IMG/VR virus record: IMGVR_UViG_3300027851_000145
Span: 1-20,254 of that record
Length of the DNA: 20,254 nucleotides
Source of the DNA: a virus
Strand: one strand, 5' to 3'
Position numbers and translations under genes: made by a program. This document shows positions 25-18,325 of the stretch, piece after piece (positions within the stretch are counted from its first letter, which is position 1; each line of letters opens with the position of its first letter). The notes beneath the pieces were generated by a model that saw only the letters and a list, made by a program, of their open reading frames with translations, had not been told where the DNA came from and ran no database searches.

Positions 25-1398
25 TTAGGCTGTACGTTGCCGGACGTCATACGGGAACGACAGATCGTCGGTCGTGAAGGCCTGGATAACATAGGGGCCG
101 CTGACCGTAAATTGACCTGTGCCGGTGACGTTGCCGTAGATGAGCGCGACGTCCTGCTGCTCGATGGCTGCGAGGTAGCCTTGGATCGCGGAGATGTCGA
201 TGATGGCGTCTTGGCCGGCCAGCGTGAACACGCCGTAGTCCGCCGCCAGCAGCTTGCCCACCGCCAGCGCCGCATCCTGACCGCTCAGGACAAAAGCGCC
301 GAACCCGGCGGCCAGCAGTCGCGCAGCCAGGAGGTCGGCGTCCTGACCAGCCAGGGTAAACAGCCCGTAATCCGCGGCGACAAGACGTCCGACCACCAGG
401 CTCGCGTCCTGGCCGGCCAGCGCGAACGCTCCGAAGTCCGCGGCGATCGTTTTGCCCAGAGCGAAATCCGCGTCCTGGCCGCTCAGCACAATGACGCCGT
501 TGTCGGCCACCAGTTGCAGGCTGCGCAGCAGGTCGACGTCCTGGCCGTTGAGCACGAACGTGCCGTTCTCGGCCGCCAGCATGCGCATCAGCGCGAAGCC
601 CGCGTCCTGCCCGCTCAGCGAGAACGACCCGTTGTCTCCGACCAGCAGGCGCATGACCGACAGCGTCGCGTCCTGCCCGCTGAGCACGAAGGTCGCATAG
701 TCCGCCGGAAGGACGCGACCGGGGTCGAGGGACACATCCTGGCCGTTCAGGACAAACACCCCTTCGGCCGCCGCCAGCACCAAACTCCGCACGAAAGTGG
801 CGGTCTGTCCCGCCAGCGTGAACGCGCCGTAGTCCGCCGTCAGCGTGATGGGGGCGCCTGGGCCCGTGAACCCGCTCGGCGCGGCCGTGTTGAACGCCGT
901 GGCGCCGAAGTTGGCGGTCCCGGTAGAGCTCGACGCCGTGGTGATGAACGCGGTGCCTGTGCTCGGAACGCCTGCCGTGATCGAGATGCCGCCGGTTCCG
1001 GTCGCCGGGTTGGCCGTGCCGCTGCCGTTCCAGTTGCCGCCGTTCTTCCGGAACCAGATGAGGCCGGCGGTCCAATCGACGGCGATCCCGACATAGTCGT
1101 TGTTGGCGAGGGTCAGGCCCGTCGCGGTCTGCGCGCCCCCGAGCCCAGCCTGGAGCACGTTGCCGTCGTTGCCGTAGAGCCAGACGCCCTGGGTGTTGAG
1201 GTCCACCGTCCCGAACGGCAGGATGCCGATCGCCGCCTGGTTCGCGCCGGCCGTGACACGGACTTCCCAGTAGTCCTTGCCGCTTCCCGTGAAGGTCGCC
1301 CGCACCCATGCGCCATAGGCCGTGACCGCGGCCGTGAGATCGCCGCCCGACAGGGTGACGTTGGCGGTCTTGTCGGATGGGTTCCAGGTGACGGCCAT
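25..1398 (-). CDS. SPRY-like virion protein with ten 22-residue repeats
   Basis: A 457-residue protein, probably part of the virion (tail fibre, head fibre or other surface protein). Residues about 40-175 look like a SPRY/concanavalin-type beta sandwich, with YWEVRV, VGIAVDW and LIWFRKNGGNW strands. Residues 184-402 hold ten tandem copies of a unit of the type AADYGVFTLAGQDA. The Gly-Gln pair recurs every 22 residues exactly (Q198, Q220 and so on to Q396), so the unit length never varies. A short C-terminal segment (about 403-457) follows. There is no signal peptide or membrane segment. The ATG at 1396-1398 is the first in-frame start, and the gene ends in TAA at 25-27. It is the last complete gene of the leftward structural run. 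The structural role is inferred from position and beta-repeat composition; the exact function is unknown. Confidence 0.85.
   Translation of the reverse strand: MAVTWNPSDKTANVTLSGGDLTAAVTAYGAWVRATFTGSGKDYWEVRVTAGANQAAIGILPFGTVDLNTQGVWLYGNDGNVLQAGLGGAQTATGLTLANNDYVGIAVDWTAGLIWFRKNGGNWNGSGTANPATGTGGISITAGVPSTGTAFITTASSSTGTANFGATAFNTAAPSGFTGPGAPITLTADYGAFTLAGQTATFVRSLVLAAAEGVFVLNGQDVSLDPGRVLPADYATFVLSGQDATLSVMRLLVGDNGSFSLSGQDAGFALMRMLAAENGTFVLNGQDVDLLRSLQLVADNGVIVLSGQDADFALGKTIAADFGAFALAGQDASLVVGRLVAADYGLFTLAGQDADLLAARLLAAGFGAFVLSGQDAALAVGKLLAADYGVFTLAGQDAIIDISAIQGYLAAIEQQDVALIYGNVTGTGQFTVSGPYVIQAFTTDDLSFPYDVRQRTA
193..849 (-). repeat. Ten tandem 66-bp coding repeats (22 aa each)
   Basis: Ten in-frame repeats of 66 bp encode the 22-residue units of the SPRY-like protein. 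The Gly-Gln pair keeps an exact 22-residue spacing through all ten. The copies have diverged (Gly-Gln-Asp is followed by Ala or Val, and Tyr, Phe, Asn or other residues occupy the aromatic position), so this is an old array rather than a recent expansion. Confidence 0.85.
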
Positions 1399-3439: not shown

Positions 3440-3877
3440 TCAGTTGCCGAAGGTCTGCACGTACAGGATGGTCACGCGCACCGAACCCGCAGTCGGTTGC
3501 CCGACGGAAGTGACGGTGGCGTAGACCGTGGTGTTCGTGCTGATGTCGTCCATCGCAGCCAGCTGCGCCGCCGTGAACGTCGGGCGCGTGCGCGCGGCGG
3601 TCTTGGCGTTGACGCCGGAGGCGTATTGCGTGCCGGCCGAGGCGGACCCCACCGTCAACGTCGCCGAGGTGGCGCTGTTGTAGGCCGTGAGCACGTCCGC
3701 CAGAATGTCGACGATCTGGGTGTTCTGCGGCAGGTAGAAGATCGCTTCCTGCGTCAGGTCGGCGTCGAAGTCGATCAGCGCAGTCTGGGACAGCACGGTG
3801 TAGCCGAGGTTCGACTGCGACATGCCGGCGGGCCGGTCGCCGAGGACCAGCGGGCCGTTCAATTGGGTTTGGGCCAT
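3440..3877 (-). CDS. Virion/decoration-like structural protein, hypothetical
   Basis: A 145-residue protein beginning MAQTQLNGPLVLGDRPAG. An N-terminal loop is followed by Thr/Ala/Val-rich strands (SATSATLTVGSASAGTQYAS) and a C-terminal strand (SVRVTILYVQTFGN). Composition and size fit phage head decoration, head-fibre or head-tail joining proteins that sit just after the capsid gene. The ATG at 3875-3877 has AGGAGA 5-7 nt upstream, one of the better ribosome binding sites here. It is the first structural gene after the second homing endonuclease, so that endonuclease separates it from the MCP. There is no enzymatic motif; the role is inferred. Confidence 0.8.
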   Translation of the reverse strand: MAQTQLNGPLVLGDRPAGMSQSNLGYTVLSQTALIDFDADLTQEAIFYLPQNTQIVDILADVLTAYNSATSATLTVGSASAGTQYASGVNAKTAARTRPTFTAAQLAAMDDISTNTTVYATVTSVGQPTAGSVRVTILYVQTFGN

Positions 3878-3894
3878 GAGGCTCTCCTAGGGGC

Positions 3895-3909
3895 GGGCGC
3901 CTCGCGCCC
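3895..3909 (-). other. Leader hairpin just upstream of a ribosome binding site
   Basis: GGGCGC and GCGCCC form a perfect 6-bp stem with a 3-nt loop, ending about 10 nt before the AGGAGA of the 3440-3877 gene. It lies in the 123-bp gap 3878-4000. It could affect translation initiation or mark a processed 5' end; the gap otherwise shows nothing clear. Confidence 0.35.
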
Positions 3910-4000
3910 ATCCTGCGACACATGTGGTCAACGAGTATGGCGCGCTGGCCGCTTGGAGCCTGCGTCGGGCGCTAAGATAGCGGATAACGACCCCTCTTGG

Positions 4001-5467
4001 CTACTGCCGCCAGACCCATCTCTGGTGACCGACCCCCAGAACCTTCTTCAAGCCCTGGTCTTCGACCCATTTCCGCTCGGAAACGCCCTTCGGCCGAGAC
4101 TGCACGAGGTATCGCGACACCTTCTGCCCGCGGCGATCCACGTAGAAGTAATCAGGTCTGGTGACGGCCTCCAACGCGAAGCCCGCCGCCTCGTACATCT
4201 TGCCGTCGCCCCAGCGCAAATCGCAGTAGGAGGTGACCTCCGCCGGTTGGTGGTCCTTGAGAAACCGAGCGAACAGCCGGCTAAAACCTCCACGGACTCG
4301 CCCGACAGAGGCATACCGCAGAACTTCCCAGCCCGCTTTTCCGTAGCGGTTCGGGCCCAGCGTGATGCACGCCAGCAGTCGGCCGTTCAGTTTCAAGCCG
4401 TACGCCGCCTGCGGCGTGACACCGGAGCCTTGGGTGTGGTGTTGCTTGAGGAACGCCTTCGCCTCAGGCCGATCCAGCACGCACACCTCACAGGCCCTGG
4501 CGTTTGCGACCTCAGCGCAGCCGAACGCCGCGCGCAAGCGGCTTTCCACCGCCTCGCGCTTCTCGATCCACTCGAAGTCGAAGATCTGGATCAGCCGGAC
4601 GTCGGCGCTCTGCGCTCGGTCGTACTTCTCCCGATGCTTGTTTCCGATGCGATCTTCCGTGTGCCAGTAGCAGCCATGATACTCGATCCCGACCCGGTGG
4701 TCTGGGGCCCAGATGTCGATGTGCAGGCCGTCCAGGATCTCTTTGTCTTCGTGCTCGATGCGAACGCCGAGGCCTTCAACGAACGACGCCACCTCCAACT
4801 GCGCGTAGTTGACCGTACGGCCGCACGCCGGACAGCCATGACCATCCAAGTGGGAGAAGGCTTTTTGCTCGAATTCTCCGTGCGTGGGGCACATCAGCCG
4901 CACCGTGTCGTGCGCCGCCGTCGGCATCTTGACGATCGCATACGCCCCGTCGTGCACGCGCGCCGCGCGTTCAGCATAGGTGGCCTGGTACGCTTCATTG
5001 CGCTCCGCCCCGAATGCCCGGCGCCGGTCTTCCCAGCATTGCGGGCAGCCATGTCCCGTCAAATGCGCGCCGGGTTTTTGGCGAAAAGCGCCATGCTTCT
5101 TGCACACGATCTCGACGGGGACATGCGTGTTCACGTATTCCACGCGTGAGTAGTCGTACGTGTCGCCGTGCACCCGTCGGAAATCCGCGATCGGGTCCTT
5201 CTTGGTCTTCTTGGCCGTACGCAGCGCCACGCCGCACTTAGGACAGCCCTGGCCAAACATGTGGTTGGCGGGGACTTGCACGAAGAACTCCTCGTGCGTT
5301 TCGCACCAGATCGGGATCTTCTGCTTGCTGCCGTTCCACGCGGCCCTGGTTTCCGGCTTCGTGTACGACAGGTTGCGGTGTTTCCCGTTCACCGGGTTGT
5401 CGAAATCCGTGACCTTCGCAACGAAGGTCTCGAAGGCGAGTTTGTGAGGTTGTTCGGTCCTAGGCAT
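4001..5467 (-). CDS. Homing endonuclease: zinc-ribbon repeats, VSR-like nuclease core, GNAT-like tail
   Basis: A 488-residue free-standing endonuclease of the kind that spreads within phage genomes. Three Cys/His repeats of the DUF723 type follow each other: C55/H58/C75/C78, C122/H125/C141/C144 and C193/H196/C212/C215, each ending GxGCPxC. Residues about 220-315 form a VSR-like (EDxHD-type) nuclease core, with LHIDIWAPDHRVGIEYHGCYWHTE carrying D251, E262 and H269 as likely catalytic residues. Residues about 325-460 resemble a GNAT acyltransferase-like domain (LNGRLLACITLG, YCDLRWGDGKMYEAAGF). I chose the ATG at 5465-5467; an in-frame TTG at 5506 would add 13 residues but lies in the MCP terminator's T tract. 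It is inserted between the MCP terminator and the next structural gene. Confidence 0.85.
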   Translation of the reverse strand: MPRTEQPHKLAFETFVAKVTDFDNPVNGKHRNLSYTKPETRAAWNGSKQKIPIWCETHEEFFVQVPANHMFGQGCPKCGVALRTAKKTKKDPIADFRRVHGDTYDYSRVEYVNTHVPVEIVCKKHGAFRQKPGAHLTGHGCPQCWEDRRRAFGAERNEAYQATYAERAARVHDGAYAIVKMPTAAHDTVRLMCPTHGEFEQKAFSHLDGHGCPACGRTVNYAQLEVASFVEGLGVRIEHEDKEILDGLHIDIWAPDHRVGIEYHGCYWHTEDRIGNKHREKYDRAQSADVRLIQIFDFEWIEKREAVESRLRAAFGCAEVANARACEVCVLDRPEAKAFLKQHHTQGSGVTPQAAYGLKLNGRLLACITLGPNRYGKAGWEVLRYASVGRVRGGFSRLFARFLKDHQPAEVTSYCDLRWGDGKMYEAAGFALEAVTRPDYFYVDRRGQKVSRYLVQSRPKGVSERKWVEDQGLKKVLGVGHQRWVWRQ

Positions 5468-5507
5468 GTCTGAGACCGTATCTGAGTACCCTTCGTCTCG
5501 CAACAAG

Positions 5508-5563: not shown

Positions 5564-6478
5564 TTAGAGCCCGGCGGTGCCGTAGATGCCGCGCGGATCG
5601 GTCCACCCGGGGATGTAGCGTTCCGTGCTCTTATAACGCATGGAGTCCGTCTCGAAGTCGCCCTCCATGGAGCGCTCCAGCCCCCGACGCTTGGCCAGCT
5701 TGAGGCCTTCCGGCGCGTCGGTCTGAACCCACCACGCCGTGGTCGACGTGATACGGGACAGGACCGCGTGGCCGTCGCCCAGCAGCCCCATCGACTTGAC
5801 GGGGTTGATGTCGTTGTTGGCCGTGCCGGCGCGCAGCGCCGAGTTCAGGAGCACTTCGCCCTGGAACATCAGCGACGGGCCCGAGACGAGCTTCTTCGGC
5901 GTCAGCCGGATGCGCTTGCCGTTGTTGTCGACGGCGTTGCGGATCTGGATGAGCATCTGCTCCAGGGAGGTCTGGGACAGCGCCGCGGCCGTGGTCAGCA
6001 GGTTCGAGAACGTGCCGGTCACGATCGGGTGGTTGGTGACGTTCAGCGCCACGCCGTCGCCCCCGAGGTACGAGCCGTTGAAGGCCCGGTTCAGGATGTT
6101 GGCGCAGAGCGTTTCCTTGGTCTCGATCAGCGACTGAGCGAGGTGGCGGGCGTAGGTCTGGCCGACGCGGATGTGGTCGCCGTCCTCGACCAGGACCTTG
6201 GTCAGCGCGAACGCCAGGCCGTAGACCTTGTAGACGTAGCGCTGGATGAACAGCACGCCGCCGGACTGGTAGGTGACCGCCGTGCCGTCGGGAAGCTCCG
6301 GCGCCGCCCCGAAGCCGTACAGGACGGGCTCTTCGTGGTAGCTGCGCGGGATGCCCGTGAACTCGCGGAAGACCTGCTTCCACTCGTCGGCGCGCTGATC
6401 GTAGATGCCGTTGAACTCCTCATTGAGGATAGGTTCAACAATCGATCGGAAGTCGGTGCTGCGCATCGGCGTAGCCAT
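5564..6478 (-). CDS. Major capsid protein (HK97-fold type)
   Basis: A 304-residue protein that builds the icosahedral head shell. Typical capsid features are the N-terminal helix (IVEPILNEEFNGIYDQRADEW), a long stretch compatible with E-loop and spine helix (ARHLAQSLIETKETLCANIL), the segment NHPIVTGTFSNLLTTAAALS, then LTPKKLVSGPSLMF, matching the 'P..LVVPP.L' region of this class, and the C-terminal RYIPGWTDPRGIYGT. No prohead protease is visible; the preceding scaffold-like gene fits scaffold-guided assembly. The ATG at 6476-6478 lies 2 bp after the GIY-YIG endonuclease stop, and its AAGGAA ribosome binding site lies inside that gene. A strong terminator follows. Assignment rests on sequence character and position; confidence is high. 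Confidence 0.88.
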   Translation of the reverse strand: MATPMRSTDFRSIVEPILNEEFNGIYDQRADEWKQVFREFTGIPRSYHEEPVLYGFGAAPELPDGTAVTYQSGGVLFIQRYVYKVYGLAFALTKVLVEDGDHIRVGQTYARHLAQSLIETKETLCANILNRAFNGSYLGGDGVALNVTNHPIVTGTFSNLLTTAAALSQTSLEQMLIQIRNAVDNNGKRIRLTPKKLVSGPSLMFQGEVLLNSALRAGTANNDINPVKSMGLLGDGHAVLSRITSTTAWWVQTDAPEGLKLAKRRGLERSMEGDFETDSMRYKSTERYIPGWTDPRGIYGTAGL

Positions 6479-6480
6479 GA

Positions 6481-7227
6481 CTACTTTTCCTTTTTCGAAG
6501 CATTCGCAGCAAGTTTAATGCCGCGAATTCTGTTGTTGCGAACGCCTTCGTCTTTCCACGACCTGCTAACGCCTTCGGAGCGGCCTTCCAGCATCTTGGC
6601 ACGTTTGATCGGATCAGCCCAGGCCGCCCTTTTCTTCTCGGCCATCTTGGCCTTGAATTCAGGGTCAGCCCACCGCGCCTTGGACGCCGCAGCTCGCGCT
6701 GCGTTGGCCTCGGGGGTGTTGGCTTTGCGAGCGTTGGCTTGCCGCGCCGCCAAGGCTTCAGGGCTCGGCGTCTTGCGCTTACCGCGCATGGCCACCGACA
6801 CTCGGGCCTTGTACTCGGGGTCTTGCCAAGCCTCGTTCTTCTTGGTGGTCGCTTCGCTGCGCCGACGCTGGATCTCAGGATCCTGCGCCAGTTGCCTAGA
6901 GCGTTCCGCGATTTTGGCTTTCGCCTCCTCGCTGTGAGAGTACCCGGAGGCCCCCTCGCCACCATCCGTCTGGTTCGTGAGCGCCACGCCCATGCGCTGG
7001 AGACACTTGATCAGCCCGCGTTCGAGATCGAAGGCGACACCCTCGTCCGAACACTCCAGCTTCCCGATCAAGATGTTCTCGGCGCCGTGCTTGACCACCA
7101 CGTGCCCGTGATGCTTGTTGCGCGCCGGCAAGGGCCGGCTGCGGCCGCCCATGCCCTTGCCGACATAGAACACACCGGACGCATCCGAGGTGTCTGGCCG
7201 GGCATGGACATAGGCGTAGTAGGTCAT
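6481..7227 (-). CDS. GIY-YIG homing endonuclease with NUMOD3-like repeats
   Basis: A 248-residue free-standing homing endonuclease. The N-terminal GIY-YIG nuclease (residues 1 to about 95) shows a YAY variant of the GIY motif at 4-6, FYVGKG for YIG at about 20, the arginine-bearing GGRSRP, and the catalytic-type glutamate in DLERGLI. The C-terminal half (about 95-248) is very basic and holds a NUMOD3-like SHSEEAKAKIAERSR motif followed by DNA-contacting repeats of the type WADPEFKAKMA, occurring about four times. The start ATG is 14 bp after the stop of the upstream structural gene and has a weak ribosome binding site. Its 3' end supplies the ribosome binding site of the capsid gene. The gene is intact, so homing activity is plausible. 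Confidence 0.88.
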   Translation of the reverse strand: MTYYAYVHARPDTSDASGVFYVGKGMGGRSRPLPARNKHHGHVVVKHGAENILIGKLECSDEGVAFDLERGLIKCLQRMGVALTNQTDGGEGASGYSHSEEAKAKIAERSRQLAQDPEIQRRRSEATTKKNEAWQDPEYKARVSVAMRGKRKTPSPEALAARQANARKANTPEANAARAAASKARWADPEFKAKMAEKKRAAWADPIKRAKMLEGRSEGVSRSWKDEGVRNNRIRGIKLAANASKKEK

Positions 7228-7241
7228 GGCTCGATCAGGCC

Positions 7242-7811
7242 TTAGAAGCTGGCCACGTCAGCGACGAACTGATGTTCGCTGATGCGGACGAAGACGTTGA
7301 CGTAGGTGTCGCCCCAGGCGTTGTCGGCGTCGTTGCTGATGTTGATCAGCTGCAATCCGGCATTCGTCGCGACGGAGGAGACATCGAGGGCGATGGCGCT
7401 CAGGCCCGTGGTGGTCGAGCCTGCGGTGATCGTCGAGAAGTCGTACTGCTTCCCGATGTCGGTCACGGCCAGGGCCGCGTTCGACTGGATCTTGTAGGCG
7501 ATCTGGGGATCGCGAGTGACATAGGCCACGATGTCCGTGGCCACGGTGCTGGCGGTCCAGCGGTTGGTCAGCCGGCGCCGGCCTTCGGAGTCGGTGAACT
7601 CGACGCCCTGGAAGGAGCCGATGAACCGATCGCCGATGGCGGCCGCCGCGATCGTGCCTTCGCCGGTGGACGACGGCACGATCTTGACGGGCTGGTTCTG
7701 GAGGATGTTCGAGGCGTAGGCCGAGGTGATGGTGAACGCTTCGGGGCGCACCACACCACCGCCCATGTGATAGGCGGGGACAAGGCCGAACGGAGAGGCA
7801 GTCGAAGACAT
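7242..7811 (-). CDS. Virion structural (decoration-like) protein
   Basis: A 189-residue protein beginning MSSTASPFGLVPAYHMGGGV, a start typical of phage head proteins encoded just before the capsid gene. It is rich in Thr, Ala, Ser and Val with beta patterning, and contains ILQNQPVKIVPSSTGEGTIA and IGSFQGVEFTDSEGRRR, which resemble small beta-barrel decoration or accessory capsid proteins. No catalytic motif, Cys or membrane segment is seen. The ATG at 7809-7811 has a GAGCGAGA tract upstream, a weak to moderate ribosome binding site. The GIY-YIG endonuclease now lies between it and the capsid gene. A decoration or cement role is inference; a structural role is likely. Confidence 0.75.
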   Translation of the reverse strand: MSSTASPFGLVPAYHMGGGVVRPEAFTITSAYASNILQNQPVKIVPSSTGEGTIAAAAIGDRFIGSFQGVEFTDSEGRRRLTNRWTASTVATDIVAYVTRDPQIAYKIQSNAALAVTDIGKQYDFSTITAGSTTTGLSAIALDVSSVATNAGLQLINISNDADNAWGDTYVNVFVRISEHQFVADVASF

Positions 7812-7857
7812 TGCACGTCTCGCTCAGAAGGGTTGAACCTCCCGGCGGGCCGGTCTC

Positions 7858-8406
7858 TTACGTGAAGATACCATGCGCCGGAGCGGATTTCCGCAGGTCC
7901 GTCGTGCCGTCGCCTTCGATGAGCTTCGCGCCTACGCGCTCAGCGTCTTCTCGGGCGGTGTCGACAAGCTCCGTGAGCCGGGCGTCGTCTTGCGCCGGGG
8001 CGCGGTGATGAGCCTCGTTCATGAACGCCAGGTACAGCGTCATGGGAAGCTTCGCCGCGAGCATCTCGTTGACCCCGATGAACCCCTCGTAGTCGCCGGT
8101 TTTGATGCCGGCGTACCCGAAGCCCGGGACCTCGGCGGCCTTGATGAGCTCGTAGCCGAGCTGCAGGCGCCGGTGGATCGGGTCTCGAGGGTTCTCCGTG
8201 GTCAGCCAGCACACGTGATAGCCGTCGATAGGCGGCAGATCGGGAAGTGCGTCGTTGAACATGGAGTTCTGGAACATCCGCAGCCGGTCGTCTTCGGTCA
8301 GCTCCCGGTCCTCGGCCACCACGCGTTCCTGCGCGGCGCGATCCGTATTGGCCCGGGGCGTGCGCCCAGCATCCAGTTCCTTCTTAAGGCGGTCGTCGGC
8401 TTCCAT
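7858..8406 (-). CDS. Conserved phage morphogenesis-module protein, unknown function
   Basis: A 182-residue, mainly soluble helical protein. The central part, YHVCWLTTENPRDPIHRRLQ followed by LGYELIKAAEVPGF and EGFIGVNEMLAAKLP, recalls a family that recurs beside capsid genes in phages, but I know of no defined function. Residues 1-45 are charged and helical; residues 130-175 look helical (DARLTELVDTAREDAERVGA). The ATG at 8404-8406 has AGGAG about 11 nt upstream and lies 17 bp after the scaffold-like gene. There is no signal peptide. It could be a minor head protein or an assembly factor; the gene call is secure and the function open. Confidence 0.8.
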   Translation of the reverse strand: MEADDRLKKELDAGRTPRANTDRAAQERVVAEDRELTEDDRLRMFQNSMFNDALPDLPPIDGYHVCWLTTENPRDPIHRRLQLGYELIKAAEVPGFGYAGIKTGDYEGFIGVNEMLAAKLPMTLYLAFMNEAHHRAPAQDDARLTELVDTAREDAERVGAKLIEGDGTTDLRKSAPAHGIFT

Positions 8407-8423
8407 CTCGGTCTCGCTCCTAT

Positions 8424-9401
8424 TCAGCGCGACGCATTGTTACGATCGAAGTCCCGGTACGCCTTAAGCATACGGTTGCGGCGCTCGGGATCGTCCCAAA
8501 CGCCGGCGTCGATCATAGCCTGCTTCCGCGCGGGTGTCACGTGGACGACACCAGCGCCGGCCACGGGGGTCTTGGCGCCCTTGGCGCCGCCCACGGGCGG
8601 CCCCTTCCGGCGCGGGGTGTCGGTGTCGTCCACTTCGGTTTCCGTCTTGCTCGCCTTGGGTTTCTTTTCGGCTCCGAAGCGCTTGTTCACGCGGTTGGTG
8701 AGCTCTTTCCAGAACTCGACCGAGTCCGGGTTGTAGCCCTCCGACTGAAGCTGGACGTCGAGCTCCTTGGTCGCGGTGCTGTAGGCGTCGACGCCGTTGG
8801 GGTTATACCAGCGGTTGGCGGCGACCCAGGCCTGGGCGAGGACGACGCGCTGGCCCTGCACGGGCGTCGTGCGCTGGTCCTTGCGCGACTTGAGCACGAG
8901 CTCCTTGTCACGCGCCGCGTCACGCAGGCGCATGGCCTCGGTGACCGCGGCGCCGTCGCCGGACTCGACGGCGTTGGCCAGGATCTGCTCGATCTGGGTG
9001 ATCTCAGCCTGGGTGGAGGCGAGTTCGGCTTCGATCTGCTGGGCGGTCTGCGTCGAGACACCGTGCTCCAGCGACTCCAGACGCTTCACGAGGGCGGCGT
9101 TGGTGCGCCGCAGCTCTTGAATGGCGTTCTCGGCCCGCTCGCGCGCCGCGCGCTGCATCTCGCGGCGCTTGAGCCGCTTCTGCCGGCTCTTGCTGGCGAT
9201 CTCGTCGTCGACGTCGTCTTCGTCGGAAGCGAGGCGCTCGTCCTCGTCGTCCTCTTCATCGTCCTCGGCGTCGTCGGGTTCAGGCTCCTCGGCGTCTTTC
9301 GCCTGGGGCGCCGGCGCCTTGCCGGGCTCCGGGAGCTCGTCGACCTCGACCACCTCGATGATCTCGTCTTCGTCTTTGCCGGTGAGGATTTCGTCAGCCA
9401 T
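8424..9401 (-). CDS. Scaffold-like head assembly protein
   Basis: A 325-residue protein with the general layout of phage scaffolding proteins. The first 65 residues are extremely acidic (AEEPEPDDAEDDEEDDEDER). A basic helix (SKSRQKRLKRREMQRAARER) and a coiled-coil segment to about residue 160 follow, then a middle domain (AQAWVAANRWYNPNGVDAYS). The tail ends in a basic, helix-forming region (ARKQAMIDAGVWDDPERRNR), which in scaffolds contacts the capsid protein. It is two genes upstream of the capsid-flanking endonuclease and overlaps the Tad2-like gene by 8 nt. No protease motif is seen. A role as scaffold is inference from composition and position. Confidence 0.7.
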   Translation of the reverse strand: MADEILTGKDEDEIIEVVEVDELPEPGKAPAPQAKDAEEPEPDDAEDDEEDDEDERLASDEDDVDDEIASKSRQKRLKRREMQRAARERAENAIQELRRTNAALVKRLESLEHGVSTQTAQQIEAELASTQAEITQIEQILANAVESGDGAAVTEAMRLRDAARDKELVLKSRKDQRTTPVQGQRVVLAQAWVAANRWYNPNGVDAYSTATKELDVQLQSEGYNPDSVEFWKELTNRVNKRFGAEKKPKASKTETEVDDTDTPRRKGPPVGGAKGAKTPVAGAGVVHVTPARKQAMIDAGVWDDPERRNRMLKAYRDFDRNNASR

Positions 9402-9624
9402 GGAGGATCATCCAGTCCTGTGCCAGAAGGTCCGTCTGCGAGCAGGTCCACGGCACGTGCTCACCGTCGACGGTGACCATCATGACGTAGCCCCGCTTCC
9501 GGGCCTCCTCGTTCGCGGGAACGTAGTAGAGGTGCATGCCGCGGCCATTCCAGCCTTGGCGGGTGACTTTGGCGCCGGCGAGCAGCGCGTCTCGGACATC
9601 GCCGATGTGCAGGCCCACCAGCAT
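9394..9624 (-). CDS. Tad2-like (DUF2829) protein, candidate Thoeris/CBASS signal sponge
   Basis: A 76-residue protein that matches the DUF2829 / 'Thoeris anti-defence 2-like' family almost end to end: a short N-terminal helix (IGDVRDALLAGAKVTRQGWN), the hallmark GWNGRGMHLYYVP (24-36), a strand VMMVTVDGEHVPW (47-59) and the terminal SQTDLLAQDWMI (62-73). Characterised Tad2 proteins bind and sequester glycocyclic-ADP-ribose signals made by Thoeris, and some also bind CBASS cyclic dinucleotides; whether this one does is untested. Length is usual for the family. Its ATG overlaps the co-chaperonin stop (TGATG), and the gene overlaps the scaffold-like gene by 8 nt. Many DUF2829 members are uncharacterised, so anti-defence activity is inferred. 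Confidence 0.8.
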   Translation of the reverse strand: MLVGLHIGDVRDALLAGAKVTRQGWNGRGMHLYYVPANEEARKRGYVMMVTVDGEHVPWTCSQTDLLAQDWMILHG

Positions 9625-10091
9625 CAGACGAACGCCTTGACCTGGGTGGGGTCGCCGACGATCTTGACCTGCAGGTGCAGGTCGTCGAACAGCACGACCA
9701 GGACTTCCTCCTGCTTGCCGTCATCACCGCGGCGCGCCGTGCCGTCCTCGTTCCAGAGCTTGATGCTCCAGCGGTCGCCGCCGTACTTCGGCATGCGCAC
9801 GAAGTCGCCCGGCTCGCACCAGGAGCCCTCGGGCCAGGGCGCGCCGGTGTTGCGGTTGCGGAACGCCAGCGGGCCGCACCTCAGCACCTTGCCGACCTGG
9901 GTGTTGTAGGTCTCGGTATCGCGGACGTCGTCCGTCAGAATGATGCCGCCCTTGGTCTTGCGCTTGGCCTGGCGCACTTGCAGCAGGACCCGCGAGCCCA
10001 GCGGCTCGACGCCGGGGTCGCAGGCGGGAAAAGCCTCCGCCAGGTCGACGTAGCCGAACTCCACCGTGTTGTGGGGCGAAATGCCCATCAT
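9624..10091 (-). CDS. GroES-like co-chaperonin (head assembly)
   Basis: A 155-residue protein with a chaperonin-10-type fold. The core is PLGSRVLLQVRQAKRKTKGG followed by IILTDDVRDTETYNTQVGKV (about 31-68), the GroES pattern 'P..DRVLV......T.GGI.LP....E....G.V...G', then GDFVRMPKYGG for the later barrel strands. The TKGGIILTDD region corresponds to the mobile loop that docks on GroEL. Phage versions such as T4 gp31 replace host GroES so that GroEL can fold the capsid protein. The C-terminal strands (EVLVVLFDDLHLQVKIVGDP) extend the usual 95-residue length. The first of two ATGs (10091) has AGGAGA 7 nt upstream. Position among head genes supports a capsid-folding role. Confidence 0.85.
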   Translation of the reverse strand: MMGISPHNTVEFGYVDLAEAFPACDPGVEPLGSRVLLQVRQAKRKTKGGIILTDDVRDTETYNTQVGKVLRCGPLAFRNRNTGAPWPEGSWCEPGDFVRMPKYGGDRWSIKLWNEDGTARRGDDGKQEEVLVVLFDDLHLQVKIVGDPTQVKAFV

Positions 10092-10103
10092 GCTCGTCTC
10101 TCC

Positions 10104-10298
10104 TTACAGGAACTTGTCGTTGGCTTCCCGATCGCGAAGCAGGTTCTCCAGCAGGGCCCTGGTGTGCTCCAGACCCTGGTAGAACCCGACCTTCTTGCCG
10201 TACTCGAACAGGCTCACGTCCGCCGAGACGCCGGTGACGGCGGCGAGCGCCGCCTTCTTCGCCTCGGCGTCGAGCGCCATGAGCAGCTTCTCGATCAC
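10104..10298 (-). CDS. Small helical phage protein, GTG start
   Basis: A 64-residue protein, mostly helical (EKLLMALDAEAKKAALAAVT, EHTRALLENLLRDREANDKF), with a middle segment SLFEYGKKVGFYQGLEHTR reminiscent of small phage structural-module proteins. The start codon is GTG (10296-10298), overlapping the upstream stop as GTGA, so translation is likely coupled. The stop TAA at 10104-10106 is embedded next to the ribosome binding site of the co-chaperonin. I do not recognise a function. Confidence 0.75.
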   Translation of the reverse strand: MIEKLLMALDAEAKKAALAAVTGVSADVSLFEYGKKVGFYQGLEHTRALLENLLRDREANDKFL

Positions 10299-10402
10299 TT
10301 CTTGGGCACGATGCTGTTCTTGCCCTTGGCCGGCATCCGGCCCATGGCCATCGCCTTGTGCTGGTTCACCGGGCCCGCCGGCGGCTTCATCGTCTTGGCC
10401 AT
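10295..10402 (-). CDS. Tiny basic protein (35 aa) after the portal gene
   Basis: A 35-residue very basic peptide (MAKTMKPPAGPVNQHKAMAM then GRMPAKGKNSIVPKK). Its AGGAGA ribosome binding site lies just after the portal stop, 7 nt from the ATG at 10402, and it couples by a 4-nt overlap to the next gene. Small Lys/Met/Pro-rich peptides of this kind occur between portal and head genes of several phages, without a known role. The same frame is open upstream through the 3' part of the portal gene, which makes a frameshift fusion formally possible, though the strong ribosome binding site favours independent translation. Confidence 0.75.
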   Translation of the reverse strand: MAKTMKPPAGPVNQHKAMAMGRMPAKGKNSIVPKK

Positions 10403-10413
10403 ATCAGGCTCTC

Positions 10414-13056
10414 CTATCCCCCGGGATTGGGGTTCGGGTTCGGGCTCCTGCCCGGGTTCTGGTTGCTGTTCGGGTTCGGGTTGGGCGGCTTCAGCTTGGC
10501 CGCCTCGATCTTGCTGTCGACCTGCATCTGGGTCATCTCCAGAGCCGTGGCGTTGTCGGCGTCGTTCATCGCGACCTTGGCGAGGAGCTCCTGCGCCTTG
10601 AACTCGGCTTCGGCGTCGGCCTCGGCGGCCTGGACCCGCTGTACGACTTGCCGAGCCTTCTCCTCGGCGGCGAGGCGCGCGGCATCCAGCTGCTGTTGCT
10701 GCTGGTCCTGCTGCGCGGTGAGCTGCAGCTTGGCCTTCTCCCGGGCGTCCTTGGCCTGGTCCTCGGCGGCGCGGCGCTGGGTCTCGGCAAGGGCGGCTTG
10801 CAGCGCCGGGTCCTGCTGCGGCGGGGGCGACAGCTCCTTGACCATAGCCATCGCCTCTTCGATGACCGGCGGCAGCGCCTTGAAGGCGTCGTTGGCGCCG
10901 CCCAAGACGCTCAGCGCGGCCTGGGTGAGCATCTGGTCGAGCGCCTGCTTGTCTGCCTTGTCCGTCGTCTGGCGGATCATGGCGCGCAGCCGGTCTTCCG
11001 GGTTGTCGCCTTCCAACGGCTCGCCGTCCTCGTCGACCAGACCCTCCGCCATCTCCGGGACGTTGGCCAGGGCCGAGGCCGCCGCCTTGAACGTCTCGGC
11101 CGCGAACCACAGGGCCATGTGCTCCTTCAGGTGGCCCAGCAGGATCGGCAGCGCCGTCGGCGCGATGAGCTTGCTGGAGCCGAACATCGGGCTCTTCATG
11201 AAGGCCACGTGGACCTGAATGTGCGCGATGTGGTCCTGGTCCGGGAAGGCCGTGATCGCCTGGCCCAGGGTCGCCTTGACGCTCTCCTCGACGGCGTTGG
11301 TCTCCGTCGGCTGCGTCTTGGGCGCCAGCAGCTTGAGCGGGTCCGGGATCTTCAGCGTCTCGAGGATGCGCTCCTCGACCTCGCGGGCGTTGTAGAGCTG
11401 CGGCACCAGCTGGGCGCGTTGGGCGACGGCCTGCATCTGGGCGAAGCGCTGCGCCTCGGAGAAGATGTTCGGGTCGCTGACCGGCCGCACGTCGAGCGGA
11501 CCGTTGAAGTCGGCGCGCGTCGCCAGCTTCTCGCCGGCTTCCTTCTCCAGCCGCTCCTCGTCCAGGTACATGCCGTTGAGGCGGTGCAAGACCATGAGCA
11601 GCCGCGCCATGGCGTCGTGCAGCCGGGCGTGGATGGCGCTGAACACCACCATGCCCTGCTCGATCTTCGCCAGGGTGGTGCCGACGGGGACGTTCTGGTT
11701 GTTGTCGGAGAAGTCGTCGAAGGTGGTGCGAATGACGTCGCGGCCCGCGTCCACCAGGAAGCCGAGCAGCTGGAACAGCGTCGCCGACGGCTGGTTGAAC
11801 GGCATCGGCATCAGCAGCTTGCGGATGTCGTCGACGCCGGGGCCCCCGTCCATTTCCAGGATCTCGGTCGGGCTGACCGTCAGGCTTTGCCCAGGCCGGC
11901 CGCCCTTCCCCATCTTCACGAGGCCCGGCATGTTGGAGATGTGGGCGCTGTCGAGCAGCGCGCGCAGCGCGCCGGTCGCCGCGGAGTTCAGGCCGCCGAT
12001 CATCTGCACGATGCCGATCGGGTAGGCCCCGCGCCACGGCACGAACGGGAACTCGACGATGTGGTCGAGCGCCTCGAGCGTGTCGTCGTCCTCGCGCCAG
12101 TTCCTGTACAGCCCCACGACCCGCTGGCTTGTTTCGTCGATCGACAGCAGGTAGGGCGCCGGCCCGTACTCTTCCTCCAGGTCCAGCGTGCAGGCGATCT
12201 CGTAGACCACGCGCAGGCCGTCCTCGTTGTATGGACTCTCCTCGCGGCCTTCGATCTTGTCGTTGGCCTTGCCGCTCTCGGTCTCGCTGATCAGCTGCGA
12301 GGGCGACGGCAGGTCCACGTCCAGGTAGAAGCCGCTGGCGACGTCCTCGGCGAACTCCTGCTCGGTGACGAAGCGCATGTGCGTCTGGCGGCCGGCCGTG
12401 TAGAAGTTGGTGGCGGCGTACGGCAGCAGGATGTGGTCTATCGGCACGAACTCGAAGACCGGCCGGTTACGCGCCTCGTTCCACCGCAGCTTGACGTATT
12501 GCGCCCCGCCCAGCGGAAGCTGGGTCAGCAGCTGCTCCAACTCGGCCCGGAAGCCCTTGACCTGGGTGGTCAGCTGCCAGTTGAGCAGCGCTGCTTTCCG
12601 GTCGGCCTTGGCGACGCGCTTGCGGGTCGTCTTGCCGACGATCTCGGTCTTCACCGGCCCGGACGCCGGCATCAGCTCCTTGATCGCCCGTGAATTGAAG
12701 TCGACGCAGACCTCGGTCAGCATCGGGTGGACGACCTTGGACGCCCCCTGGAAGTCGGCGCCCCCCGGCGCGTTCTTCCCCATGCCGGTGCGGTTCAGCC
12801 CCTCCGCGTACTGCTCGTCGCGCTCCTTGCGCGCCTGCTTGTCGTGGTCCAGGAGCTCCAGGTACTCGGTCGCGATCTTCGACAGCTCGCGGTCGTCGAG
12901 CGTCTCGGCCAGGTTGGCGTAGAACTCGCCCTCGCCTTCCGGCTCCTCCTCGTCCTTCAGATGGACGATGGCGCCGCCGTCGGGAGTGTCCTCGATCTCG
13001 GGGTCCTCGTCCTCGAACTCGACGACTTCACCCTCCAGGTCCTCGTCGTCGTTCAT
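10414..13056 (-). CDS. Portal protein
   Basis: An 880-residue portal, the dodecameric ring at the head vertex through which DNA enters and leaves. After an acidic N-terminus (EGEVVEFEDEDPEIED), residues about 45-600 carry the portal core: HDKQARKERDEQYAEGLNRT, SKVVHPMLTEVCVDFNSRAI, VEFPFVPWRGAYPIGIVQMI, DVIRTTFDDFSDNNQNVPVG and GTTLAKIEQGMVVFSAIHAR. About 720-860 is a long Gln/Ala/Glu coiled coil (AAEEKARQVVQRVQAAEADA). The last 22 residues are an Asn-Pro repeat ending SPNPNPNPGG. It is longer than usual portals (about 450-750), mainly through the C-terminal helix. The ATG overlaps the upstream stop (ATGA). Next to the large terminase, as is typical. Confidence 0.88.
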   Translation of the reverse strand: MNDDEDLEGEVVEFEDEDPEIEDTPDGGAIVHLKDEEEPEGEGEFYANLAETLDDRELSKIATEYLELLDHDKQARKERDEQYAEGLNRTGMGKNAPGGADFQGASKVVHPMLTEVCVDFNSRAIKELMPASGPVKTEIVGKTTRKRVAKADRKAALLNWQLTTQVKGFRAELEQLLTQLPLGGAQYVKLRWNEARNRPVFEFVPIDHILLPYAATNFYTAGRQTHMRFVTEQEFAEDVASGFYLDVDLPSPSQLISETESGKANDKIEGREESPYNEDGLRVVYEIACTLDLEEEYGPAPYLLSIDETSQRVVGLYRNWREDDDTLEALDHIVEFPFVPWRGAYPIGIVQMIGGLNSAATGALRALLDSAHISNMPGLVKMGKGGRPGQSLTVSPTEILEMDGGPGVDDIRKLLMPMPFNQPSATLFQLLGFLVDAGRDVIRTTFDDFSDNNQNVPVGTTLAKIEQGMVVFSAIHARLHDAMARLLMVLHRLNGMYLDEERLEKEAGEKLATRADFNGPLDVRPVSDPNIFSEAQRFAQMQAVAQRAQLVPQLYNAREVEERILETLKIPDPLKLLAPKTQPTETNAVEESVKATLGQAITAFPDQDHIAHIQVHVAFMKSPMFGSSKLIAPTALPILLGHLKEHMALWFAAETFKAAASALANVPEMAEGLVDEDGEPLEGDNPEDRLRAMIRQTTDKADKQALDQMLTQAALSVLGGANDAFKALPPVIEEAMAMVKELSPPPQQDPALQAALAETQRRAAEDQAKDAREKAKLQLTAQQDQQQQQLDAARLAAEEKARQVVQRVQAAEADAEAEFKAQELLAKVAMNDADNATALEMTQMQVDSKIEAAKLKPPNPNPNSNQNPGRSPNPNPNPGG
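10417..10487 (-). repeat. Asn-Pro coding microrepeat at the portal 3' end
   Basis: Six-nucleotide AACCCG-type units (seen as GGTTCG/GGGTTC on the plus strand) encode repeated Asn-Pro dipeptides at the end of the portal. Short exact units are prone to slippage, so length may vary between related phages. The peptide should be extended and disordered. Confidence 0.7.
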
Positions 13057-13334
13057 GCGTCATCCCCCGGCACGAGCCAGCCCAAATCGGAGCGCATAAT
13101 GTCCACTAACTCGGCCTTGCACAACTCGGCGAGCGAAAGCGCCCTGTGCATCTCTTTCGAGCTGTAGATTGCGGGCGAGCCATCGAACATGATCCCGAAG
13201 ACTACAACTTCGCGCAATTTGCCTGCAGCCGAAGCCAGCACGGCGTCTGGCTCCTGGCCGCCGGGATGGCCTAGAGGTAAAGCCACGCCGCCGTCTTCGC
13301 TCCTGAACAGGGGCACGACCTTATCGTCAGACAA
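13053..13334 (-). CDS. Small hypothetical protein with TTG start
   Basis: A 93-residue protein between the large terminase side and the portal. I chose the TTG at 13332-13334 because GGAG lies 6 nt upstream and the peptide then begins (M)SDDKVVPLFRSEDGG; the longer ATG start at 13451 would add an Arg/Pro-rich shadow of the preceding gene. The sequence has a short N-terminal strand, a middle REVVVFGIMFDGSPAIYSSK beta region and a C-terminal helix (RALSLAELCKAELVDIMRSD). It overlaps both neighbours (8 nt upstream, ATGA downstream). The pattern VVVFGIMFDGSPAIYSS is plausible for a small two-layer fold; I do not recognise the family and assign no function. Confidence 0.7.
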   Translation of the reverse strand: MSDDKVVPLFRSEDGGVALPLGHPGGQEPDAVLASAAGKLREVVVFGIMFDGSPAIYSSKEMHRALSLAELCKAELVDIMRSDLGWLVPGDDA

Positions 13335-13548
13335 GGGGTTCTCCCGTGCATTCGCACCACAGCTTGCGGGCGCGGGCCCAGGCCCCCAGCATCGCTTTGG
13401 CGCTCTCGGAGCCCCCCGCCGGGGAGTAGTGGTGCGCGGTTTTTCGGTCAAAGTCGGCAGCTTTAGCGCGCAACTCTTCAGCGCGGGGGTGCCCCCCGTC
13501 CGCCAGCGCTCGCATGCGTTCAGCTAAAGAAAGCGAGTTATACGCCAT
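13327..13548 (-). CDS. Conserved small phage protein, unknown function
   Basis: A 73-residue soluble protein: MAYNSLSLAERMRALADGGH, RAEELRAKAADFDRKTAHHY, then KAMLGAWARARKLWCECTGE. The final block 'GAWARAR.LW...TGEPL' recalls short proteins found near terminase genes in phages, none with a known function to my knowledge. The ATG (13546-13548) overlaps the end of the terminase gene by 11 nt. A role in packaging or regulation is possible from position, but nothing in the sequence proves it. Confidence 0.75.
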   Translation of the reverse strand: MAYNSLSLAERMRALADGGHPRAEELRAKAADFDRKTAHHYSPAGGSESAKAMLGAWARARKLWCECTGEPLV

Positions 13549-15025
13549 ATGGGTTCACCCTGTTCGGCTTGGCGCGCGGCGCGTCGATGTCCTGGCGCTT
13601 GCCGCGTTCGGGCATCAGCGTCACCGCGTCCATCATGCCCTTGTCGACGATGTAGCGGAACGCCTGCGACGTCGTGTCGACGTAGTCGTCGTGCTTGATG
13701 CTGCCGGGCCCGGAGAAGGAGCACAGCTGGGACACGAAACCGTCGGCCCAGGTACGGAACCTCCCCGGGAACTTGGCGCTCTCCGGGATCCACACCATCT
13801 TCCGCGCGAAGATGTGCGACACGGCGTGGAGCCGCGCCGTCTTGTCCGCCCGGCCGGGGTTGTAGGCGTAGGCCTCGATGCCCTCGCGTTCCAGCGACTG
13901 GCGCAGCGAGATGCCCGAGCCCTTGTCCTCGATGATCAGGATGTCGGGCTTGCGGCCTGTGGTGGTCAGCTTCGCCGGCCCGTACATCGGGCTGATCAGC
14001 GCCTGGTCGCTCTCGTCGCCGTAAGCGGTGTTGAGCTCCTTCTTCACCTTCTTGATCAGGTCCGGCAGCCCGAGGTGGTCCTCCCAGCAGTCCAGCAGGA
14101 GGACGTTGCGCTTGTCCTCGAGCCAGAAGACGCCCCACACCGAGCAGGCCGTAGGGTCCGCGGCCTGGGTGCGCTTGTCGATCGTCTTCTCGGTGAAGGC
14201 CGTGTCCAGCGACATGACGATGAAGTCAAACTTCGGCAATGGCCGGTCATGCGGCCACAGGCGCAGCCAGGACCGGGCGATGATGCCGCCCTCCTCGGCG
14301 TCGATCAGCTCGCCGTTCAGCTCCTGGCGCCCGAGCTGCGTGCCCTCGTACTGGGTCAGCTGCTCGAAGAAACTGTTGGGCAGGTTCGCCCGGTTCTCGT
14401 AGGTCGTGCCCGTGACGATGACCCGGTTGGCCTTGGGCGCCACCAGCTTGCGGATGAACTCCTTCGGCTTCGGCGTCGTCGTCCACATGACCTTGGGCTT
14501 AGGCCCGAGACGCAGGCCCATCATGGCCATGTCCCAGGTCGCCTCGTCGTTCGCCCAGGTCGCGATCTCGTCACCCAGGATGCGGGCGCACTGCGGCCCC
14601 CGCAGGCGCTCCGGTTCCTCGGAGGAGAAGCCCCGAATGATGGCTTTCTTGCCGCTCAGCGTCCTGATCGTGATGATCAGATTGGTCTTGTTGTAGTCTT
14701 CGATGACCTCTAGCGGCAAAGTGTTCAGTATCCCGGTCGGCCCCTCGAAGCAAGTGTGCCGCACGTCATTGAGTGTCGGGGCGATGACAAAGCTGGGATG
14801 ACCGTCGGGATCGAAATACGCCTCCTGGCTGATCCACTGGGAGCCCATCAAGCTCTTGCCAAATCCTCTTCCGGCCAGTACGCCGCACTCCGTCCAGGGC
14901 TCAGGCGGCGGCCGCTGCTTATCCCGCGCCGTCGCCTTCCACTTCGCCAGCCACACCAGAACCGCGAGCTGCTCCTCCGTCATGGAGCGCAGATCGTCGG
15001 CCGTGAGGTTGGCGATGTCGGTCAT
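13538..15025 (-). CDS. terL: Terminase large subunit (packaging ATPase/nuclease)
   Basis: A 495-residue motor that cuts concatemeric DNA and pumps it into the prohead through the portal. The ATPase domain shows Walker A AGRGFGKS (51-58), Walker B RILGDE (148-153, E153 catalytic) and the coupling motif TTTPKP (182-187). The RNase H-like nuclease domain shows FIVMSLDTAF (D274), LIIEDKGSG (D367 region) and KHDDYVDTTSQAF (D446, D447, D450), the acidic metal-binding set. Length and motif order are normal. I use the ATG at 15023-15025, overlapping the upstream stop as TGATG; an upstream in-frame ATG at 15169 would add 48 Gly/Arg-rich residues that are a shadow of that gene. The small terminase candidate lies 4.5 kb away. 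Confidence 0.93.
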   Translation of the reverse strand: MTDIANLTADDLRSMTEEQLAVLVWLAKWKATARDKQRPPPEPWTECGVLAGRGFGKSLMGSQWISQEAYFDPDGHPSFVIAPTLNDVRHTCFEGPTGILNTLPLEVIEDYNKTNLIITIRTLSGKKAIIRGFSSEEPERLRGPQCARILGDEIATWANDEATWDMAMMGLRLGPKPKVMWTTTPKPKEFIRKLVAPKANRVIVTGTTYENRANLPNSFFEQLTQYEGTQLGRQELNGELIDAEEGGIIARSWLRLWPHDRPLPKFDFIVMSLDTAFTEKTIDKRTQAADPTACSVWGVFWLEDKRNVLLLDCWEDHLGLPDLIKKVKKELNTAYGDESDQALISPMYGPAKLTTTGRKPDILIIEDKGSGISLRQSLEREGIEAYAYNPGRADKTARLHAVSHIFARKMVWIPESAKFPGRFRTWADGFVSQLCSFSGPGSIKHDDYVDTTSQAFRYIVDKGMMDAVTLMPERGKRQDIDAPRAKPNRVNPYGV

Positions 15026-15294
15026 CAGACGCTTTTGGTCAGAAGCGCCCTGGCCCGTTCGATCGCGCCGAGCGTGACCAGCGGGTTCGGCGAGCTCACG
15101 GAGTACCGGGTGTCCGCGGTCGAGCCTTCGACCCGGCTGGAGATCACCACCAGCATCTGCGGATCCCACTCGCCGCCGTCGATCAGCCGCAGCACATGGA
15201 TCAGCACATCTCTGGGTGTCCAGACGGCGGCGTCATCGTTCATGCGCGACCGCGCTTCCGTAATCGACACCGGGTGGTTCGCGAAATCGTCCAT
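15025..15294 (-). CDS. Small hypothetical protein upstream of terminase
   Basis: An 89-residue soluble protein (MDDFANHPVSITEARSRMND, DAAVWTPRDVLIHVLRLIDG, then GEWDPQMLVVISSRVEGSTA). The pattern 'W.P.DVL...L..IDGGEWDP..LVVI' looks like a compact alpha/beta domain. I set the start at the ATG 15292-15294, which has AAGG about 9 nt upstream; the longer frame to 15384 has an Arg/Cys-rich extension across a hairpin and is less likely. It couples to the large terminase by a 1-nt TGATG overlap. I recognise no family; an accessory role in packaging or host takeover is possible. Confidence 0.7.
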   Translation of the reverse strand: MDDFANHPVSITEARSRMNDDAAVWTPRDVLIHVLRLIDGGEWDPQMLVVISSRVEGSTADTRYSVSSPNPLVTLGAIERARALLTKSV

Positions 15295-17939: not shown

Positions 17940-18299
17940 ATGACTTACCCTCTACCTTCCGAGCCTATGCCTCGTGACATTATCCGCCGCTCTATCGTCA
18001 TGCATCCCACGCTACTGGCCGAGGCGCTTGACCGTGCGGCCGCAACCCATCGCGCTGCGGCCGCCAGCATGATGAGCCGGCAAGCCTGCCAAGCCGCGCA
18101 CAAGCTGGCGCATGACTGCGCCGACGCCGCCAACGCGCTGCGCGCCGTTGGCGATGTGGACGCGCTGACTGATGACTTCATGGCCGCGGGCCTTGGCGTC
18201 TGGACGTCCGTCCTGATCCAAGCCGCGCGCCTTCAATGTCTGCCGCAATCTGTCGCGAGCCAAGCGTGCGAGCGCCTGGACGCGTCGACCGTCGCCTAA
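17940..18299 (+). CDS. First gene of the rightward cassette, helical hypothetical protein
   Basis: A 119-residue, Ala-rich, mainly helical protein (MTYPLPSEPMPRDIIRRSIV, then HPTLLAEALDRAAATHRAAA, then DVDALTDDFMAAGLGVWTSV). There are no membrane segments and no clear catalytic motif; four cysteines are scattered (CQAA, HDCADA, LQCLPQ, QACE). The ATG at 17940 has GGGGGAG about 10 nt upstream followed by the AACCTGACC leader shared by this cassette. It lies directly downstream of the nested palindrome and candidate promoter, so it may be expressed early and repressed by the same factor. Family not recognised. Confidence 0.72.
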   Translation: MTYPLPSEPMPRDIIRRSIVMHPTLLAEALDRAAATHRAAAASMMSRQACQAAHKLAHDCADAANALRAVGDVDALTDDFMAAGLGVWTSVLIQAARLQCLPQSVASQACERLDASTVA

Positions 18300-18325
18300 C
18301 CTCTGGCCACAAGGAACCTGACACC

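Follow-up and report, generated by a model that had tools for sequence, protein, structure and literature searches.

Phage proteins from several families disable nucleotide-based immune signals. Acb2 and Tad2 have been established as sponges (PMC12043709). The Acb4 family corresponds to PF13876, and all eight of the homologues that were tested bound 3'3'-cGAMP (PMC11722364). Phage proteins with RyR domains (RyDEP) either cleave 2'cADPR and 3'cADPR or sequester them (preprint, PMC13232231). Among the Tad2 proteins, ModTad2 (anti-Thoeris 2 from a Myroides odoratus prophage; PDB 8v3e, 9eib) is a His-ADPR sponge, and SPO1 Tad2 (PDB 8sme, 8smf, 8smg) is a gcADPR sponge that does not bind 3'3'-cGAMP (PMC11722364). 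According to a review, the gcADPR pocket of Tad2 is made up of the beta1-beta2 loop, the beta3-beta4 loop, strand beta4, the beta4-alpha3 loop, and helix alpha3, while cyclic dinucleotides are bound elsewhere, within a long beta2-beta5 insertion (PMC12043709).

When these antagonists act, and what sets off the defenses, has also been described. The activity of SPO1 Acb4 appears early in infection (PMC11722364), as does that of the RyDEP of DyoEdafos (PMC13232231). Major capsid proteins activate the Thoeris systems of staphylococci and streptococci (PMC12578639). A phage portal protein does the same for SpbK, a TIR protein (PMC12847820). Another defense, Panoptes, responds to Acb2 and, weakly, to SptTad2, and it punishes phages that express Acb2 (PMC12657218).

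The usual places to look for counter-defense genes are early regions and anti-defense islands. Here, we describe a Tad2-like gene that lies among the head genes of a virus. The window, which is the whole stretch of DNA that we analyzed, is a 20,254-base IMG/VR virus record with its head genes on the minus strand.

A compact member of the Tad2 family

9394..9624, minus strand: compact Tad2-like protein, 76 aa (PF11195, PDB sequence matches, AlphaFold2 and Foldseek)

The translation of this open reading frame is MLVGLHIGDVRDALLAGAKVTRQGWNGRGMHLYYVPANEEARKRGYVMMVTVDGEHVPWTCSQTDLLAQDWMILHG. The initial annotation had recognized two sequence blocks of DUF2829 in the 76-residue product, and each is present letter for letter; it did not mention the strand (minus). 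The protein matches Pfam's PF11195 (Tad2-like, formerly DUF2829) with E = 2.1e-19 and 70.2 bits, as compared to a cut-off of 25, and the match covers 68 of the 76 residues and positions 3-73 of the 73 in the profile. Because the score is far above the cut-off and spans most of the protein, this is not a chance match. In the PDB, a sequence search returned solved Tad2 chains only (ModTad2, SptTad2, HgmTad2/AcrIIA7, and SPO1 Tad2).

The structure points the same way. The AlphaFold2 model, a monomer prediction based on 43 aligned sequences from the window and the loci, had a mean pLDDT of 91.9 and a pTM of 0.80. Foldseek found 24 matches to it in the PDB at E < 0.001, with query TM-scores of 0.79-0.87, and all of them were Tad2; the next match had E = 0.47. 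The Tad2 fold that had been proposed from the sequence is thus supported by comparison with solved structures.

A single-sequence scan found no close relatives of this Tad2, and PADLOC did not match it. The only NCBIfam match was to FlgC, which we dismissed as meaningless. The gene's GC content (0.654, or 0.857 at third codon positions) is in line with that of the neighboring genes. Overall, the protein is an ordinary member of the Tad2 family; the new part is the recurrent slot in the head operon.

Predicted ligand

9535..9558, minus strand: beta1-beta2 loop, residues 23-30, with invariant W25, N26, G27, and M30; predicted gcADPR-pocket element (alignment, model, PMC12043709)
9490..9519, minus strand: short beta2-beta3 connector, residues 36-45, without the long insertion linked to dinucleotides (inter-motif length, PMC12043709)
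9424..9474, minus strand: beta3-beta4 loop, strand beta4, beta4-alpha3 loop, and helix alpha3, residues 51-67, with invariant W59, S62, Q63, and D65; predicted gcADPR-pocket element (alignment, model, PMC12043709)

We mapped the published pocket elements onto the model, where they correspond to residues 23-30, 51-58, and 59-67. Twelve residues are invariant in 43 homologues (G17, R22, W25, N26, G27, M30, W59, S62, Q63, D65, D70, and W71). The window's protein has all 12, and eight of them (W25, N26, G27, M30, W59, S62, Q63, and D65) lie within predicted elements of the gcADPR pocket, so the pocket motifs are intact.

The two motifs are separated by just 28 residues in the window's protein, as compared to 42 in ModTad2, 54 in SptTad2, and 60 in HgmTad2. 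Sixteen of the 43 sampled Tad2 sequences have a similarly compact stretch (20-29 residues), and none of the solved PDB chains that we found do. In particular, the window's protein lacks the long beta2-beta5 insertion of the dinucleotide-binding (anti-CBASS) subgroup of Tad2. Since the pocket motifs are intact and the dinucleotide loop is missing, the predicted ligand is an ADPR-type signal rather than a dinucleotide. From loop length and motifs, then, we predict that this Tad2 is a sponge for an ADP-ribose-type (Thoeris) signal.

The head operon

19571-20113, minus strand: small terminase
13538-15169, minus strand: large terminase
10414..13056, minus strand: portal protein (phrog_1216, E = 2.8e-15); possible trigger of TIR sensors
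10104..10298, minus strand: conserved 64-aa protein between portal and GroES (profile homologues in 218 loci)
9624..10091, minus strand: GroES-like co-chaperonin, upstream side of the slot (PF00166, E = 2.4e-7; phrog_3188, E = 1.5e-8)
8424..9401, minus strand: scaffold-like protein, downstream side of the slot (keeps its position after GroES in 170 distinct loci)
7858-8406, minus strand: conserved head-module protein
7242-7811, minus strand: conserved head-module protein
5564..6478, minus strand: major capsid protein (PF25209, E = 2.5e-12); possible trigger of TIR sensors

The Tad2 start shares 1 nucleotide with the GroES stop (TGATG), and its stop shares 8 nucleotides with the start of the scaffold-like gene (ATGGCTGA), which agrees with the initial description of a gene coupled to both neighbors by overlaps. 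The scaffold-like protein is charged and of coiled-coil type. It had no trustworthy family match among the Pfam and PHROG profiles (the best, PF15237 at E = 9e-4, is below the cut-off), and we dismissed its PTRF_SDPR and XopAE matches as noise from charged sequence. That it acts as a scaffold is suggested by its location, a short way upstream of the major capsid gene.

A consensus scan of positions 7200-13600 found one promoter-like site on the minus strand, at 8512-8540 inside the scaffold gene, which is within the count expected by chance, and no terminator-like site on that strand. These results are compatible with a single head-gene transcript but do not prove one.

A few other genes of the window are of interest. 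An open reading frame at 6481-7227 (minus strand), between a 189-aa head protein and the capsid gene, looks by eye like a GIY-YIG homing endonuclease but has no match in Pfam; a similar one, also recognized by eye, is at the same junction in locus L151 (7249-7998, plus strand). Just downstream of the capsid gene, at 4001-5506 (minus strand), a 501-aa open reading frame contains a treble-clef zinc finger and weakly matches Vsr-like proteins and homing endonucleases. The 457-aa protein at 25-1398 (minus strand) matches SPRY weakly and repeats a motif resembling AADYGxFxLxGQDA many times; it is probably a virion surface or tail protein. On the opposite strand, at 18236-18949 (plus strand), there is a candidate SprT-like metalloprotease that scored under the Pfam cut-off.

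The GroES-scaffold junction in the window's clade

We fetched relatives with the window's head genes (portal, capsid, and GroES), so whether a locus has Tad2 had no influence on its inclusion. A GroES-like gene is followed by a scaffold gene in 170 distinct loci, and adjacency is the normal state: in empty slots, the median gap between the two is 13.5 nucleotides, and 4-nucleotide overlaps are frequent. The gap is over 100 nucleotides in eight loci (about 5%), whose slots are filled; the other 162 slots are empty. All eight of the filled slots contain only Tad2, Acb2, Acb4 (PF13876), or RyR/RyDEP:

L108, L143, L366: Tad2
L096: Tad2 and PF13876
L145: Acb2/Tad1-hairpin (PF24729)
L105: Acb2 and RyR (PF02026)
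L099: Acb2, RyR, and PF13876
L104: PF13876

Most members of these families were confirmed by Pfam, and the remainder were identified by profiles that we built. The antagonist functions of the slot members are assigned by homology and so are putative. We had considered that the PF13876 and RyR genes might be unrelated passengers, but we dropped this idea because both are published signal antagonists.

Loci that were fetched with Tad2 or Acb2 alignments, which are a biased sample, gave eight further filled slots:

L209, L213, L214, L196: Tad2
L243: Acb2
L315: Acb2 and an HNH nuclease
L273: Acb2, RyR, and PF13876
L260: Acb2, Tad2, and PF13876

Including the window, 17 slots are filled with such genes. 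As to whether Tad2 genes recur between co-chaperonin and scaffold genes in related phages, a survey suggested by the initial annotation, they do so in nine further distinct loci.

In the head-gene-fetched loci, 17 antagonist genes lie between the large terminase and the capsid gene. Twelve of these are in the GroES-scaffold slot, four are between portal and GroES, one is after the scaffold gene (L019), and none are in the other three intervals. Outside of the terminase-capsid region, we found one antagonist gene in 618 kb. Tested against six equal intervals, this distribution has a binomial P of 1e-6 by gene or 3e-4 by locus, which are rough values only, as the loci are related. Endonuclease-like genes in these loci are found in the portal-GroES interval or ahead of the capsid gene.

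Two of the Tad2 domains (L096, 4767-5288, and L260, 6068-6721) are fused to an N-terminal domain, which in L096 is common to phrog_872 and phrog_9467. Separately, L158 (4322-5014) and L161 (4314-5084) share a protein of 230-256 aa between portal and GroES, a junction that is also the site of Acb2 and Acb4-family genes.

Turnover and origin of the cargo

On a tree of capsid proteins, filled and empty slots are intermingled (7 changes in 100 rows). For instance, L096, L099, L105, L260, and the empty L098 have near-identical capsid proteins. The flanking DNA of L098 is about 83-88% identical to that of the four filled loci, whose cassettes differ. Similarly, the flanks of the empty L114 and the filled L108 are 88.5-91% identical: AAGGAGATGAA precedes the scaffold gene in L114 and precedes Tad2 in L108, where the scaffold gene starts 2 nucleotides past the Tad2 stop. 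The slot Tad2s do not form one clade in the Tad2 tree (8 changes for 10 slot sequences), although support is low for such a short protein, and they appear to be polyphyletic.

The slot is empty in Caulobacter phage RW, whose capsid protein is 84% identical to the window's, and in other cultured or complete-genome relatives (Roseobacter CRP-902, Pelagibacter HTVC023P, Phage DSL-LC04, and two Manatee Spring records). In Alcaligenes QDWS535, GroES is directly before the next head gene, which our scaffold profile did not recognize. When genome contigs were scanned for hosts, all matches were MAG contigs in which the slot was empty or incomplete, so they are no firm guide to the host. Given the empty slots of the cultured and complete-genome relatives, the empty slot is likely to be the original state.

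In the window's clade, then, the junction has conserved flanks, variable and unrelated cargo, and repeated filling, as expected for an accessory insertion slot. The unrelated cargo and the turnover between close relatives argue for an exchangeable counter-defense slot and against a structural role.

Other clades and other contexts of Tad2

We surveyed two further sets of loci, using the capsid proteins of L243 and L196 as queries (62 and 61 distinct slots, respectively). Three of these slots are filled (L470, 3515-3769; L501, 3494-3706; and L517, 2877-3104), and all three contain short proteins (70-84 aa) from sister clades that do not belong to a known family of signal antagonists. The proteins in L470 and L517 have no match in Pfam. 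All three are candidates for counter-defense proteins or for small assembly factors. So, across clades, the cargo is not restricted to counter-defense (none of the three other-clade fills has a known antagonist family, and L315 includes an HNH nuclease), and since sponge-only cargo failed in two more clades, we limit the claim to the window's clade. In the L196-capsid set, L575 and L586 have a Tad2 just after portal, and L517 has one, with a weak match and a divergent sequence, just before GroES. Overall, the surroundings of GroES attract antagonist genes repeatedly, but only in the window's clade are such genes frequent strictly between GroES and scaffold.

Across IMG/VR, Tad2 genes have mixed neighbors, so placement in a head operon is atypical for the family at large. 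In Pseudomonas phage phiAH14a (L430; KU708004.1), a cultured phage that is unrelated to the window, the Tad2-like gene (3779-4249) is also among head genes, with a head morphogenesis gene on one side and, on the other, the gene that comes before the one for the major capsid protein. In the N4-like phages that we examined, the Tad2-like gene is outside of the head genes. In Escherichia phage IME11 (L433; NC_019423.1, 2940-4255), a Tad2-like gene is two genes after the "gene 66" protein, which its note places in the PF13876/Acb4 family; here antagonist genes cluster in an unrelated phage.

Interpretation

Our preferred reading, which as a whole we consider probable, is that the window encodes a compact Tad2 sponge for an ADPR-type ligand, as an exchangeable accessory gene between GroES and scaffold that is expressed from the head transcript. 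It builds on the family, the fold, the pocket motifs, the missing dinucleotide loop, the adjacency of the flanking genes, and the repeated filling and turnover of the slot; the ligand and the expression would be its predicted parts. The protein would form a tetramer and would bind an ADPR-type TIR signal (gcADPR or His-ADPR) at the subunit interfaces. Capturing this signal would keep the Thoeris effector off and so protect the phage. The sponge would be translated from the transcript of the head genes, with the timing and the yield of capsid production, and in the phase in which capsid or portal proteins may trigger TIR sensors. Late expression, which we infer from the gene's location, fits with the reports that TIR sensors recognize capsid and portal proteins, and a late operon with a high output would be well matched to a sponge, since sponges capture their ligands stoichiometrically. 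However, the published activities that appear early in infection (SPO1 Acb4 and DyoEdafos RyDEP) are unlike a late operon and count against this proposal.

As for the slot itself, we tentatively suggest that it is dedicated to swappable antagonists, with the antidote being translated in step, as to both time and amount, with the triggers of TIR or CD-NTase sensors and with the cargo tracking the defenses of the hosts. This is a real possibility, but we would not call it probable. It is also possible, if a bit more doubtful, that the junction simply permits insertions: a small gene of any kind could settle there provided that it brings a ribosome site, counter-defense genes would accumulate, and the position would have no functional meaning, although the protein would still be a sponge. 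That only about 5% of loci are filled would fit a permissive junction, as would the short proteins without a known antagonist family in other clades, the HNH nuclease in L315, and the mixed neighbors of Tad2 elsewhere. A permissive junction does not account so well for the window's clade, where every filled slot of the unbiased set contains signal antagonists and where homing endonucleases use other junctions.

The remaining alternatives concern what the protein does. Dinucleotides such as cGG are ligands of some Tad2 proteins (8wjd was solved with cGG; PMC12043709), and Acb2 and Acb4, which share the slot, are anti-CBASS proteins. Nevertheless, a CBASS (cyclic dinucleotide) sponge instead of a Thoeris one, as the initial annotation had allowed, is unlikely, as the dinucleotide-holding insertion is absent (the motifs are 28 residues apart instead of 54-60) and SPO1 Tad2, which is also shorter, does not bind 3'3'-cGAMP (PMC11722364). 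The same annotation had raised a structural role, and the gene's position and its translational overlap with two assembly genes would suit a helper of GroES or of the scaffold that reuses the Tad2 fold. We consider this very unlikely: the slot is empty in 162 of 170 relatives and in cultured relatives, it is refilled by unrelated folds with a common counter-defense function, the pocket motifs are kept, and the only significant structural matches are to Tad2. Least probable of all is an anti-CRISPR of the AcrIIA7 type. Two PDB chains of the Tad2 family (8kbi and 9kzr) are named AcrIIA7, and several phage records label homologues as anti-CRISPRs, but AcrIIA7/HgmTad2 was solved with 1',2'-cADPR and with cGG, so signal binding is its structurally supported activity, and the slot genes of the relatives are signal antagonists, not anti-CRISPRs.

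The head-operon slot is a simple place to look for new counter-defense genes. We found no description of a recurrent, exchangeable counter-defense slot inside a capsid-assembly operon in the literature we searched, mostly without subscription papers. Because all four slot families in the window's clade are published antagonists, the short unannotated proteins of the sister clades become candidates. The slot also makes a question testable: are the timing and dose of sponges matched to the capsid proteins that Thoeris-type sensors recognize? The patchy presence of sponges would fit with a cost of carrying them, given that Panoptes punishes phages that express Acb2 (PMC12657218).

Comparison with known systems

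The best match to the window's protein is ModTad2, both by sequence (E = 1.8e-15) and by Foldseek (E = 1.7e-8, TM-score 0.83). The two share a GWNG(K/R)GM stretch and a YYVP stretch; they differ in the distance between the motifs (42 residues in ModTad2 vs. 28) and in that ModTad2 has SVSD where the window has SQTD. SPO1 Tad2 has the same fold as the window's protein (TM-scores 0.83-0.84 for 8smf_H, 8smg_B, and 8sme_B) and shares its SQTD motif, and both are without the long dinucleotide loop, but the connector of SPO1 Tad2 is longer and the two are about 30% identical. HgmTad2/AcrIIA7 and SptTad2 (PDB 8kbi-8kbm and 8wjd) have the window's fold and both motifs; unlike the window's protein, they have the long insertion that is tied to dinucleotide binding.

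Acb2, Acb4 (PF13876), and RyDEP (RyR) occupy the same GroES-scaffold slot in related phages and also disable nucleotide immune signals, but their folds are unrelated to Tad2, and Acb2 and Acb4 act on CBASS signals. The hotspots of antiviral systems in P2-like phages and P4-like satellites (PMC9122126) likewise hold variable accessory cargo between conserved phage genes. The cargo described there is anti-phage systems, whereas the slot in the window's clade holds putative counter-defense genes whose translation overlaps that of capsid-assembly genes.
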